From IMG/VR virus record IMGVR_UViG_3300020183_000042, positions 20,736 through 84,735 of that record: 64,000 nucleotides of DNA; one strand, given 5' to 3'. The position numbers and the translations under genes were made by a program. Of this stretch, positions 3,321 to 52,998 are shown piece after piece. Below the pieces are notes generated by a model. It was not told where the DNA came from. It was given only the letters and a program-made list of their open reading frames with translations, and ran no database searches. Numbering within the stretch: position 1 is the first letter of the stretch; the number at the start of each line of letters is the position of its first letter. This stretch comes from a virus.

Positions 3321-3389
3321 TTACTTTTTAATCTGTTCCAAACCATTAAAGATACCAACTATTATAGCTAAAGCAACTAGAATTGTCAT
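3321..3389 (-). CDS. Tiny one-helix membrane peptide
   Basis: 22 aa, MTILVALAIIVGIFNGLEQIKK: a single hydrophobic helix with a basic tail. Its ATG overlaps the TGA of the preceding fragment gene (ATGA), a coupling seen many times in this window. Too short for family assignment. Confidence 0.45.
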   Translation of the reverse strand: MTILVALAIIVGIFNGLEQIKK

Positions 3390-16840: not shown

Positions 16841-17593
16841 TTATCGTTTTTTATTTTTTAGGATCCAGTCAATAAATCTAGATACTCTAGTATGACCAGA
16901 CTCATCGCCGTATCCAGAGTTTGTATTTTTATCAGCGGCCATAACACAAGAGTTTATTCCAACTAATTCATTATCCCAATACATTGGACCACCGCTATCT
17001 CCACTTGCTATGAGAAATTCTAGTTTTGTTCTATTTGGATCATCATTTCTGGAAGGAGAACATATTAACATATCCCTAAACACACCATCAACAACATTAG
17101 ACCCTGCTCTTTTTTTACCATCGCAAGTTCTTTTACTACCAGTAAAAGTTCCAGTAAATCCGTATCCCGCTATGGAAACTATTTGACCCACCTCATCATC
17201 TCCCTCATAAAGCTTAGGATAAAAATCTAACCCAAATGATTTTTCTGAATAACCTAGCGCTATATCCGCTATGCCAAAACTATTTTCACTATAGTTTTCA
17301 TGAATAATAATTTCTGAAATACAGTATTTTTTACCATTTAATGTGAAGATACAACTACTAGCATTTGTTGCAACGTGGGCTGCGGTAAGAATGTGATGGT
17401 CATCTATAGCAACAGCGGACGCTACAAAAAACTTAGTAATATCATCACCATAATTACCAGATAACGCACCAGTGTGAATGAACCGTTTGCCAAATTCTAT
17501 ATATTTTGAATCTGAAACATTAGGATCTATAGTGCCAGCACTTATTTGTGAAACCATTATTAATAAACAAATCAAAATTATATATCTAAACAT
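16841..17593 (-). CDS. Secreted trypsin-like serine protease (S1)
   Basis: 250 aa. Signal peptide MFRYIILICLLIMVSQISAG. Catalytic triad visible: LTAAHVATNA (His), SFGIADIALGY (Asp) and FLIASGDSGGPMYWDNEL (Ser in GDSGGP), plus Cys pairs that could form disulfides (CIF/C-IS, CDG/CS). Exported to the periplasm or outside; could act on host surface proteins or in lysis. Serine proteases of this eukaryote-like type are rare in phages. Good Shine-Dalgarno (AGGTGTTGAA) before the ATG. Confidence 0.85.
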   Translation of the reverse strand: MFRYIILICLLIMVSQISAGTIDPNVSDSKYIEFGKRFIHTGALSGNYGDDITKFFVASAVAIDDHHILTAAHVATNASSCIFTLNGKKYCISEIIIHENYSENSFGIADIALGYSEKSFGLDFYPKLYEGDDEVGQIVSIAGYGFTGTFTGSKRTCDGKKRAGSNVVDGVFRDMLICSPSRNDDPNRTKLEFLIASGDSGGPMYWDNELVGINSCVMAADKNTNSGYGDESGHTRVSRFIDWILKNKKR

Positions 17594-17611
17594 TTCAACA
17601 CCTCTTTTTAA

Positions 17612-17923
17612 CTAACGACGAGGTTTATTTTTTACTTTATTTAGGTACACTTTACAGTCACTTATTACCTCTTTATTCCAGCTTTTATAGTCCATTAAGT
17701 GGCCAAATAAGAAATGACAAGGATCATCACAAAGGGTAATGAGATTGCTAGGGTCTAATTCTCTATCTGGATTGCAATGAACCGGCTCTATATGGTGAAC
17801 CTCTAATTTTTTATTTCTTCCACAAGCCGCACAAACTGGCTGACTACTCAGGTGTTCTTTCCTTACGCTGCTCCACTTTGGTGATCTATATGCGTATCTT
17901 AAAAATTTTCTAAAATTAAACAT
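17612..17923 (-). CDS. HNH endonuclease
   Basis: 103 aa. QPVCAACGRNKKLEVHHIEPVHCNPDRE...NLITLCDDPCHFLFGH: CxxC zinc pair, HH of the HNH core, N in SNLITLC and the final H. Compact HNH protein like those of phage terminase regions or homing elements. No terminase gene is seen in the window, so it may be free-standing. Confidence 0.85.
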   Translation of the reverse strand: MFNFRKFLRYAYRSPKWSSVRKEHLSSQPVCAACGRNKKLEVHHIEPVHCNPDRELDPSNLITLCDDPCHFLFGHLMDYKSWNKEVISDCKVYLNKVKNKPRR

Positions 17924-31442: not shown

Positions 31443-32762
31443 TCATATTTGTCTATTAGAACCATGTAGGATTTTAAATGTAGGAAATCTTAGACTGATA
31501 CCACCATCTTGGTTTTCTGTTTCTTCAAAATATTGAACAGTAATTGTCTTACCAAGAATATGTTTCGGGTGCTTGTAAAAGTTTTGACGTTGTTCAATAC
31601 TAAAGCCACTACCAACACGCACAGTATGTCCCTTATGATTAATAGTTACACAAGAAAGCATGGTTTCTTCATGTTCTTTACCGTTTAATACATATCGAAA
31701 TGGTCCCATTTCTGTGTCGATAACTTCGTACTCATCATCAAAAAATTTCTTAACCTTGAGCAAATCTTTGCTACGCTTTCCCTTATATGGTTCATCTGCT
31801 CGCAACATTACTCCTTCCCATCCTTTATCAGCGGCTTCTTTTACCCACTCTTGGAAATGCTCATCATTATGAATCAATTCTTGTTCAAGCACAGTCAGGA
31901 TTGGATATGACTGGTAATATTGCATAGCACCACAAATATCAGCATATCGAATAGAATAAGGTCTATTACTCTTACCCTTCTTACTATAAAACTCATCAGT
32001 AGTTATCGCATCAAAAATCTTAAAAGACGGATTAGGAATAGTATGATCCTTCTTACGCAGTTCCTTCATCACTCCCTGGAAATCCTCATTACCATCTTCA
32101 TCTACCAGACAAAGTTCGCCGTCCAAAACAATACTATTAAGACCAATAGCCTTAATACCATCTGCAACTACTTCTAGAGTATCGAATACTTTTCCTGTTC
32201 TTGAAAGGAATGTAACTTCTCCAGCCTCATCAACAATAGCGATACATCTGGCCCCATCAATCTTACGAGAGACATACCATCCATCATTCCAATCAACAAG
32301 TTTAGGCTCATACTTTTCTGCTAGAGCAACACTAAACTCTGGAATCCAATCTGGAATAGCCTTGTTGATAATTTTATCGCCAGCACGGGTTTTCAAATCT
32401 TTATCAATAACACAATGAATAAGTTCCTCATAATCACTGTGATGTTCGATAAAACTATTGACCGCAGCAATAGCATCGTGACCAGTAATCTTGCGATTCT
32501 TTAGATCTTCAAGGAGATCAAAAAAATTATTGTATTCATTTTTACGAGCCACAAGATGACTCTTTTTCTTTAGATTATCGCTAGTAACATTATATTGCCA
32601 AAGAGGATGATAGGTATACAGCAGAATCTTCTTGGCAAAATTTGCAGAAGCATTATTAAAGATACCACAGTTTATTTTGATAATATCTTCTTTTTCTTTC
32701 GTACTGCTAGTTGCCCTAAGAGCATTAACCATATTCTGAACATAATTAAAATCGTGAGTCAT
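31443..32762 (-). CDS. ATP-dependent DNA ligase
   Basis: 439 aa. Adenylation motifs: WYVSRKIDGARCIAIV (motif I, KxDGxR with nucleophilic Lys), VLDGELCLVDEDG (III), FKIFDAITTDEF (IIIa), GWEGVMLRADEPYKG (IV), LLKVKKFFDDEYEVID (V) and an OB domain. Length like T4 and T7 ligases (359-487). Seals nicks in DNA replication and repair. Strong CCGATA promoter upstream. Confidence 0.93.
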   Translation of the reverse strand: MTHDFNYVQNMVNALRATSSTKEKEDIIKINCGIFNNASANFAKKILLYTYHPLWQYNVTSDNLKKKSHLVARKNEYNNFFDLLEDLKNRKITGHDAIAAVNSFIEHHSDYEELIHCVIDKDLKTRAGDKIINKAIPDWIPEFSVALAEKYEPKLVDWNDGWYVSRKIDGARCIAIVDEAGEVTFLSRTGKVFDTLEVVADGIKAIGLNSIVLDGELCLVDEDGNEDFQGVMKELRKKDHTIPNPSFKIFDAITTDEFYSKKGKSNRPYSIRYADICGAMQYYQSYPILTVLEQELIHNDEHFQEWVKEAADKGWEGVMLRADEPYKGKRSKDLLKVKKFFDDEYEVIDTEMGPFRYVLNGKEHEETMLSCVTINHKGHTVRVGSGFSIEQRQNFYKHPKHILGKTITVQYFEETENQDGGISLRFPTFKILHGSNRQI

Positions 32763-33171: not shown

Positions 33172-33873
33172 TTAAGTGATAGAATCTTTATCCATCCTAT
33201 TATAAGCATCTGATCTTTCTTTATTAGATTCTCCAGAGGACAAATCAGTATGATCATAATCCATAATATCTGTGTCTGGAGTTACCCATCTCATGTTTCT
33301 TTCAGCGGTCCATAGTGTGCTGTTGTATTTGCGATGAATCACAAGGTCTTTTTTAATTGTGAATGATGGATCGTGCATAACCAATCTATTGTTTGGTTGA
33401 ATAGCAAAATTACCATTATCCATCATGATAAAATGACCACACTTATGTTGTGATGGAAATTCGCTCAGAGTAAAATCTGTATCCCCACTATCAGTAGAAC
33501 TTGCCCAATCAAGAGTGAACAAATATCGTCCAGTATATTCTACTCGTCGGCGTGAAATAAATTTGCAAGTATGATTTCGTAGTATAGGATACGAAGTTAC
33601 CGAAACATGATAACTAAAAGAATCCCACAACACTAACTCATCTAACTCTTGTTGTTCACTATCTTCTTTCCAACAAAAAGCATGAATGGGCATCCTCCAC
33701 CACAATCCACCATCCTCCATAATAAAATGGAATAATGGTGCTTGTGCTGGTATAGAAGTCATACCAAAAATATAACACGGAAACTTTTTGTCAAAAGAAT
33801 CCTCTTGATTGCGTAGAAAATTTCCACGCACATAACCACTAACAACAGGAATTGGAATGTTTAAGTATGCCAT
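33172..33873 (-). CDS. Hypothetical protein, aromatic-rich
   Basis: 233 aa, MAYLNIPIPVVSGYVRGNFL..., many Trp/His and beta strands (FHFIMEDGGLWWRMPIHAFC, GHFIMMDNGNFAIQPNNRLV). Looks like a beta-sandwich. No family recognised. It begins only 10 bp after the tmRNA 3' end, so it may be read from the same transcript. Confidence 0.6.
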   Translation of the reverse strand: MAYLNIPIPVVSGYVRGNFLRNQEDSFDKKFPCYIFGMTSIPAQAPLFHFIMEDGGLWWRMPIHAFCWKEDSEQQELDELVLWDSFSYHVSVTSYPILRNHTCKFISRRRVEYTGRYLFTLDWASSTDSGDTDFTLSEFPSQHKCGHFIMMDNGNFAIQPNNRLVMHDPSFTIKKDLVIHRKYNSTLWTAERNMRWVTPDTDIMDYDHTDLSSGESNKERSDAYNRMDKDSIT

Positions 33874-33883
33874 ATTATTTTAG

Positions 33884-34237
33884 TGGATGCGGCGGCATCG
33901 AAGCCGCGTCCTAGCATAAATCAAATTACATCTTCTACAAGTTTATTTTGTTCATGAGTTAAATAGGAATACAGAACAAACAAGATTCATCCTATCTTAC
34001 CAACTGCTCTTAACCTACAACCCGTTGGATATTGTAAGTGCAGAGGGATTTAACATCAGACTTTTGATCGCTACCCTCATTCGCAACCGCAGTCTGTTAC
34101 TGCCCTTTTTTGTCAGGCAGCAAGTGCTAACTGATTATTGCCAGTTAAAGCATTTAGTAGACTTTTATAGTGGCCTGTCTACCAACCACTACTTGCTAAC
34201 ATAACTCTCCGTATGTAGTCGAAACCTTTACGCACCC
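33884..34237 (-). ncRNA. ssrA: Transfer-messenger RNA (tmRNA)
   Basis: 354 nt. 5' end GGGTGCG pairs with 3' CGCATCC (7 bp, one G-U). The 5' tRNA-like half has GGTTTCGACT and the 3' half GGACGCGGCTTCGATGCCGC, an intact T arm; the last bases are ACTA, so CCA is not encoded. Between them, at 34151-34113, is a short ORF GCT...GCC-TGA encoding ALTGNNQLALAA, ending in the typical LALAA degradation signal. Rich in inverted repeats expected for the pseudoknots. Would rescue stalled ribosomes and tag proteins. Confidence 0.9.
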
Positions 34238-34245
34238 GTATTGTT

Positions 34246-34273
34246 ATTATACACTGTTGGTTTGAGAAGTCAA
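34246..34273 (-). promoter_or_regulatory. ssrA: Promoter of tmRNA
   Basis: TTGACT, 16 bp, TATAAT, placing the start site at or within 2 bases of the tmRNA 5' end (34237). Confidence 0.85.
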
Positions 34274-34288
34274 TAGGCATAGAAAAAT

Positions 34289-34316
34289 TTGCTTTTAGTC
34301 GAAAATGGTGTATGAT
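34289..34316 (+). promoter_or_regulatory. Plus-strand promoter of HNH gene
   Basis: TTGCTT, 16 bp, TATGAT on the plus strand, divergent from the tmRNA promoter. Confidence 0.55.
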
Positions 34317-34349
34317 ACTTTATCAAGTTACAATGTATTGAGTTCGATT

Positions 34350-34859
34350 ATGAATCATTGTGTCAATTGTTCAAAAGAAACAAATAATCCTAAATTTTGT
34401 TGTAGATCATGCGGAGTATCGCATAATAATCGACTACAGCCTAAAAGGATGGCTAAAAAAAGATATTTCAAATGTTTGTGTTGTAAAAAACAAACCGAGT
34501 TTTATACTAATAATCCTAGAAAATATTGTTCAAAAAAATGTCAAATCAAACATAAAAGAGAAAAATCAGATAATATTATAGAAAAACAAGGCTTCGGTAA
34601 TGGTTACTACCACAATGTAAGAATTAGAAAATACTTTATACGCAAGTATGGTAACAATTGTATGATCTGTGGGCAGTCTGGAGATAACTGGAATGGAAAA
34701 CCTATAACTCTTATTGTGGATCACATAGATGGGAAATCTAATAATAATAAATTAGATAACCTGCGTATTGTTTGTCCTAACTGTGATTGTCAATTACCAA
34801 CGTACAAAGCCAAAAATAAAGGTAATAGCACCAGACAATATTTTATAGTTCAGAAATAG
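34350..34859 (+). CDS. HNH endonuclease (homing-type)
   Basis: 169 aa from MNHCVNCSKE, 34 bp after the -10; a longer start at 34305 lies upstream of the predicted TSS. Three Cys pairs in the N-terminal half (CVNC, CCRSC, CLCC), then NNCMICGQSG and TLIVDHIDGKSNNNKLDNLRIVCPNC: the HNH core with the conserved N and Cys zinc knuckle. The only plus-strand gene in the left 50 kb, wedged between tmRNA and tRNA-Ile; its stop codon is inside the tRNA 3' end. Behaves like a mobile homing endonuclease. Confidence 0.88.
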   Translation: MNHCVNCSKETNNPKFCCRSCGVSHNNRLQPKRMAKKRYFKCLCCKKQTEFYTNNPRKYCSKKCQIKHKREKSDNIIEKQGFGNGYYHNVRIRKYFIRKYGNNCMICGQSGDNWNGKPITLIVDHIDGKSNNNKLDNLRIVCPNCDCQLPTYKAKNKGNSTRQYFIVQK

Positions 34860-34929
34860 GGCCGGGTAGAATCGAACCACCTTGACGAATTTATAAGATT
34901 CGCATCTTAGACCATTAGATGACGGCCCC
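34857..34929 (-). tRNA. tRNA-Ile(UAU)
   Basis: 73-nt cloverleaf: GGGGCCG/CGGCCCT, D arm ATCT/AGAT, anticodon arm CGAAT-CTTATAA-ATTCG (UAU, reads AUA), T arm GGTGG-TTCGATT-CTACC. The discriminator and two bases overlap the convergent HNH stop codon. Reads the rare AUA codon, useful for an AT-rich phage. Confidence 0.92.
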
Positions 34930-34960
34930 ATATTGTAAAAGATCAACCACCGACCAATAC

Positions 34961-52927: not shown

Positions 52928-52998
52928 TAGGGGTGGAAGGTAATGCTCCTTCTTCAATAGATTAAAAGTCTATTGCATCACTTTAATGCTTCGCCCCC
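52928..52998 (-). tRNA. tRNA-Lys(UUU) with unusual elbow
   Basis: 71 nt: acceptor GGGGGCG/CACCCCT, D arm GCAT-TAAAGTG-ATGC, anticodon arm ATAGA-CTTTTAA-TCTAT (UUU), T arm GAAGG-AGCATTA-CCTTC. The D loop lacks G18G19 and the T loop lacks the T-Psi-C sequence, so the canonical elbow contacts are missing, as in some organellar tRNAs. Confidence 0.8.

Follow-up and report, generated by a model that had tools for sequence, protein, structure and literature searches.

tmRNA is a bacterial RNA that releases stalled ribosomes and labels the incomplete protein for destruction. The bacterial one-piece form (ssrA, RF00023), for example that of Chloroflexota, has the same architecture, pseudoknots, G3·U70 pair, G--QLALAA tag, and UAACU-GGC context as the gene described here. 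Genes that are likewise phage-encoded were reported from mycobacteriophages Bxz1 and Wildcat, Bacillus phage G, Streptomyces BE phages, and huge phages, often together with tRNA genes (PMC4131195, PMC7162821). A published count found tmRNA in 402 of 18,146 phage genomes (PMC9004378). An earlier note on the DNA analysed here had called phage tmRNA uncommon, which is right as far as frequency is concerned, but such genes are well known.

The gene described in the following lies in a stretch of 64,000 nucleotides (hereafter the window) from an IMG/VR virus record of 84,735 bases. Comparative sequence evidence indicates that it is a real phage tmRNA with an intact structure under strong selection, and that tmRNA is a core gene of the metagenomic phage clade to which this virus belongs.

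Identity and structure of the tmRNA gene

Covariance-model search matched the gene to RF00023 from end to end (model positions 1-374) with 103 bits (E 3.8e-39), which is more than twice the gathering score of 47. Together with the one-piece call by ARAGORN, this confirmed the proposal of a complete phage tmRNA, and neither of the two findings named as speaking against it, a missing match or missing pseudoknots, was obtained. A circular permutation with an intervening segment is absent, the 5' to 3' order being contiguous in both ARAGORN and RF00023. The features of the locus are collected in Table 1.

Table 1. Features of the tmRNA locus; positions refer to the window except for the protease gene in the last line.
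Feature	Position	Strand	Evidence and remarks
tmRNA gene, one-piece, 355 nt	33883..34237	-	ARAGORN; Rfam RF00023
Acceptor stem, 5' strand GGGUGCG	34231..34237	-	7/7 pairs with 33885-33891
Acceptor stem, 3' strand CGCAUCC, and discriminator A73	33884..33891	-	sequence, structure alignment
D-loop region UAAAGGUUUCGAC with G18 G19	34218..34230	-	parsed sequence
T-arm GCGGC-UUCGAU-GCCGC, intact 5-bp stem, 6-nt loop	33892..33907	-	parsed sequence
PK1 (AGUGG/CCACU, GGUAGAC/GUCUACU)	34156..34190	-	helices 4, 5; 97-98% of cells paired, compensatory changes
PK2	34043..34096	-	helices 7, 8, 9
PK3	34000..34039	-	helices 10, 11
PK4	33947..33995	-	helices 12, 13
Tag frame GGC AAU AAU CAG UUA GCA CUU GCU GCC UGA = GNNQLALAA-stop	34113..34142	-	ARAGORN; RF00023 alignment
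Sigma-70 promoter TTGACT-16-TATAAT	34246..34273	-	11/12 positions; 8 nt before tmRNA 5' end
HNH endonuclease gene	34305..34859	+	PHROG 1271, E 5e-23; Pfam HNH_3 below cut-off
tRNA-Ile, anticodon TAT	34856..34930	-	ARAGORN; own perfect promoter 34988-34961
Short phage protein gene annotated 'PurM/ferredoxin'	33172..33873	-	PHROG 3704; starts <=10 nt past tmRNA 3' end
ATP-dependent DNA ligase	31443..32762	-	PHROG 114, E 9e-90
ClpP-like protease, 227 aa	L304:6592-7275 = record G000 16991-17674 (outside window)	-	PF00574, 58.9 bits (cut-off 20.2)

The two tRNA-like ends pair as claimed, in a 7-bp acceptor stem that includes a G3·U70 wobble, which together with discriminator A73 provides the alanine identity features. 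G3·U70 is constant in 56/56 sequences, and the neighbouring acceptor pairs 4-6 covary. At its 3' end the tmRNA reads CAUCCACUA, and CUA-type sequence follows in the genome. CCA is thus not part of the gene and has to be added; the tmRNA of the close relative L006 encodes it.

Selection on the fold was assessed in an alignment of 56 distinct relatives, in which 83 pairs in 14 helices, the four pseudoknots included, were scored. Standard pairs occupy 96.4% of the cells compared to 83.4±0.3 after shuffling, and double-sided changes were found at 59/83 pairs compared to 33.8±2.6; as the structure was drawn on the window sequence, a somewhat favourable bias is built into these values, but the double-change count lies far beyond that effect. 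None of 500 shuffles reached the observed pairing or double-change value, and the covariation signal was lost when partner columns were slid by 1-3 positions. PK1 to PK4 are all present, each with compensatory changes.

The tag reading frame

The frame of nine codons occupies nucleotides 96-125 of the tmRNA gene according to ARAGORN. Its resume codon, GGC, follows UAACU and agrees in register with that of the Rfam consensus; U and A at -5/-4, a short frame, a small hydrophobic end, and a stop were all found. Read from this context, the mature tag would be A-GNNQLALAA once the tmRNA-borne alanine is added. A tag of 12 residues had been proposed before, but its first triplets, A-L-T, precede the resume codon and are not translated. 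Six relatives (L183, L216, L218, L223, L236, and L264) have a 1-nt deletion in this stretch and keep the tag, which shows that it is not read in frame.

The LALAA end given in the earlier note was correct. The lack of charged residues, also pointed out there, applies to this tag but is not a feature of the clade, as relatives carry E or K at positions 2-3 (GETQLALAA, GKTTLALAA). Clade tags are mostly of the form G--QLALAA with NN, TN, ET, VN, NT, SH, KT, and others at residues 2-3, and while these residues differ, LALAA and the stop are almost fixed. A DNA pattern for such tags retrieved 63 bacterial stretches, 53 of which hold an ARAGORN tmRNA with a G--Q[LF]ALAA tag, mostly from Chloroflexota but also from some Opitutia, Saprospiraceae, and others. 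The tag of the window is therefore an ordinary one, found in many cellular tmRNAs. It had been suggested that its unusual start could alter protease targeting; with the tag corrected to an ordinary type that retains the C-terminal LALAA, the stated ground for this expectation is removed. A-N-D-E as a yardstick is centred on E. coli and may not be the tag of the host.

A hairpin between UAACUG upstream and CAGUUA within the tag was considered as a special feature and rejected, since resume-codon hairpins occur in many bacterial tmRNAs. Its pairs are invariant, except that five sequences show one compensatory replacement, U-A for C-G.

Distribution in the phage clade and possible host

Relatives were located by means of the downstream ATP-dependent DNA ligase. 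A tmRNA upstream of the ligase was found in 34/34 loci with an upstream flank of over 4 kb, typically at a distance of about 1.4 kb, and the RF00023 score is above cut-off in 24/25 longer records. Blastn searches with the tmRNA, a method insensitive here, gave no match at E 0.01 in 50,697 phage records and none in 151 Chloroflexota genomes. Among the isolate phages of the collection searched, none has a ligase with more than about 32% identity to it. Taken together, ligase and tmRNA searches point to a clade without a near isolate in the collections searched.

The host could not be read from a FastTree tree of tmRNAs or from a ranking with a phage profile; best matches were scattered over Bacteroidota, a zetaproteobacterium, Chloroflexota, and Opitutia and thus uninformative. 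Shine-Dalgarno sequences precede 24/65 starts in the window, compared to a background of 8%, and this usage together with the sigma-70 promoters argues mildly against a Bacteroidota host.

Variation of the elbow

The T-arm had been described as canonical, which is true for the stem GCGGC/GCCGC but not for the loop UUCGAU, which has 6 nt instead of 7. G18, G19, U55, and C56 are present. The tmRNA body of L006 and L086 is near-identical to that of the window, but their T-loop is a normal UUCGAUU of 7 nt. SmpB binding requires the contact of D- and T-loop, and SmpB grips the elbow (PMC3968760); a 6-nt loop could weaken the elbow that is contacted by SmpB and by modification enzymes.

A survey of 100 distinct phage tmRNAs, which also covered those missed by ARAGORN, found 74 canonical elbows, nine with G18/U55 and a 6-nt loop, 11 with A18/G55, five with U18/U55, and one with A18/U55. 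G55 was always accompanied by A18. The A18/G55 group (L057, L180, L190, L197, L219, L220, L222, L184, L243, L019, and L268) has the D-loop/T-loop sequences GGCAGAN, UGCAAAU, and UGCGAU; its members escape ARAGORN and are detected by Rfam or a phage profile. On a tree built from the rest of the sequence, the 18/55 state required 15 changes compared to a mean of 16.6 for shuffled labels, so that the state of the elbow is hardly tied to the ancestry of the tmRNA body.

In bacterial tmRNAs from several phyla, the G18G19/U55C56 core was found in 109 of 110 parsed sequences, a count that leaves aside 18 unparsable loci and takes in as core six Chloroflexota rows which, as read from the sequences, are one base out of register through a longer T-stem. 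The remaining one, L443 from a Bacillota-group genome, has an A18/G55 elbow in a one-piece tmRNA. A 6-nt T-loop did not occur in any of the 110. From the literature, a G at the U55 position is known from Caulobacter tmRNA and GG from the mitochondrial tmRNA of Reclinomonas (PMC1168896); the usual T-arm, with a 5-bp stem, a 7-nt loop, and G18/G19 with U55/C56, is widespread in tmRNA but does not strictly define it. Cellular tmRNAs strongly conserve the elbow; in this clade, it changes unusually fast. A limited literature search found no description of repeated elbow switching inside one phage clade.

The switching may stem from recombination of the ends, from adaptation to the SmpBs of different hosts, or from escape from an enzyme that binds the elbow. 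Metagenome assembly error could affect single cases but is a poor explanation for independent recurrence. As a tentative reading, with the odds rather against it, the elbow might be under diversifying pressure, either to match different host SmpBs or to escape a host enzyme that recognises the elbow. On this reading there are repeated switches among canonical G18/U55, A18/G55, and contracted 6-nt T-loops, in which both ends of the molecule change together while body and tag stay nearly constant, and the window would be one case of it.

The A18 D-loop pattern also matches many other phage contigs (L461-L519), some of which probably have two-piece tmRNAs. Quite different tags occur among them, for example with the ends RTDNQFALAA or EEESLLAA, and a few of the matches are not tmRNA.

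Promoter and genomic neighbourhood

The good promoter that had been noticed at the 5' end was confirmed. The window has 29 promoters with at least 11/12 consensus positions compared to about four expected for both strands together, and every one lies on the minus strand; the tmRNA promoter is therefore probably real and of the host sigma-70 type. In most relatives, the tmRNA lies tight between two genes and no promoter is recognisable immediately in front, which suggests that it is processed from an operon transcript.

All but one of the 29 promoters (TTGACA/TATAAT) fall within 24319-61163 (-), the 29th being at 3389, and they are dense in 52-61 kb, where many small ORFs are found. G+C is 44-49% in the promoter-rich region and 27-38% elsewhere. 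The promoter-dense minus-strand region looks like an early-gene region.

The divergent HNH endonuclease gene separates tRNA-Ile from the tmRNA; it is absent in L006, where about 90 nt are found at this place. A further tRNA match at 52928-52998 (-), with 41 bits in Rfam and unreported by ARAGORN, adjoins a tRNA cluster. Elsewhere, a protein of 682 aa (L303:7648-9696, minus strand) has an intein carrying a LAGLIDADG endonuclease. An apparent repeat of the motif TGGTGTAWWATA did not exceed chance expectation in the window, and nothing supported an alternative genetic code for the right-hand 16 kb of the window.

Possible function

SmpB (PF01668) was found in 0/25 records of the clade, mostly fragments, with positive controls in 10 bacteria. 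Judged from these mostly fragmentary records, the phage tmRNA must use SmpB, AlaRS, and EF-Tu of the host. It probably works as a one-piece tmRNA that is transcribed from the gene's own promoter of host type. Its 5' end would be set by the transcription start or by RNase P, CCA would be added by a host enzyme, and host AlaRS would charge the molecule. Host SmpB and EF-Tu would then bring it to ribosomes that have stalled, the nascent chain would gain A-GNNQLALAA, and host proteases of the ClpXP type would degrade the tagged chain via its LALAA end. What the phage gains is most likely the recycling of ribosomes and a source of tmRNA at a time when the genes and mRNAs of the host are destroyed, as for the neighbouring phage tRNAs. 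With tmRNA as a core gene of a large clade without near isolates, ribosome rescue appears to be needed by these phages rather than carried as an occasional passenger.

Other roles have to be weighed against this. A phage tmRNA that works poorly once bound to the SmpB of the host, or once inside a stalled ribosome, could dampen host trans-translation, as was reported for the tmRNA-like RNA of mycobacteriophage DS6A, which consists of the TLD only. Such a decoy would fit the contracted T-loop of the window and the other non-canonical elbows of the clade, and a DS6A-like form inhibits tmRNA in E. coli (PMC11915505, PMC4131195). However, all domains, the tag frame, the stop, and the four pseudoknots are kept under covariation and the end of the tag is nearly invariant, none of which an inhibitor would need, and this makes the decoy quite improbable. 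The gene might also be a non-functional passenger or an attachment-site relic taken from a host tmRNA gene, as integration often takes place in tmRNA genes (PMC9004378, PMC11590407). Conservation with compensatory changes throughout the clade, the presence of a promoter for the gene itself, and the distance of the tmRNA body from every sampled bacterial tmRNA leave hardly any room for this origin.

It was further considered that proteins tagged by the tmRNA may be destined for a protease with a ClpP-like phage subunit, by which the phage would control degradation. A ClpP homologue lies about 37 kb downstream of the tmRNA in the same record and occurs in 15/25 records of the clade. The aligned triad of Ser, His, and Asp is conserved, and the predicted fold (pTM 0.70) has ClpP as its best PDB match (E 1.7e-9); the phage collection gave no match at 1e-5. 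On the other hand, a Clp-type unfoldase above cut-off was found in none of 18 records, some phages were reported to have ClpP-like proteins as their prohead proteases (PMC5964084), and co-occurrence with tmRNA may be plain shared ancestry. A search for the T4-type prohead protease (PF03420) matched nothing, controls included, and was thus uninformative. A link between ClpP and the tag would be attractive; degradation run by the phage is considered unlikely.

Comparison with known systems

Among the sampled bacterial tmRNAs, no close sequence relative of the window tmRNA was found. Many of the sampled Chloroflexota tmRNAs can form a sixth T-stem pair, as noted for Dehalococcoides (PMC1168896), whereas the window has a T-stem of 5 bp and a loop of 6 nt. 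Some huge phages carry SmpB beside their tmRNA (PMC4131195, PMC7162821), in contrast to the 25 records of this clade, and the known phage tmRNAs are set apart from this metagenomic clade by the lack of a blastn match among the phage records. Two further tmRNAs from large phages are those of Melnitz and Mosig. Methylophage Melnitz has a two-piece permuted tmRNA that is tied to a glutamine riboswitch (PMC9004378), whereas that of the window is one-piece. The tmRNA of pelagiphage Mosig is also two-piece and permuted; this phage shares with the window the PurM/ferredoxin-like gene, which in the window follows the tmRNA.

Phage tmRNA is thus already known in kind, and the variation of the elbow is the part worth pursuing. 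If confirmed, elbow switching would provide a set of natural tmRNA variants that differ in their D/T-loop contacts on near-identical bodies, in which the role of this contact in SmpB recognition would be directly testable.
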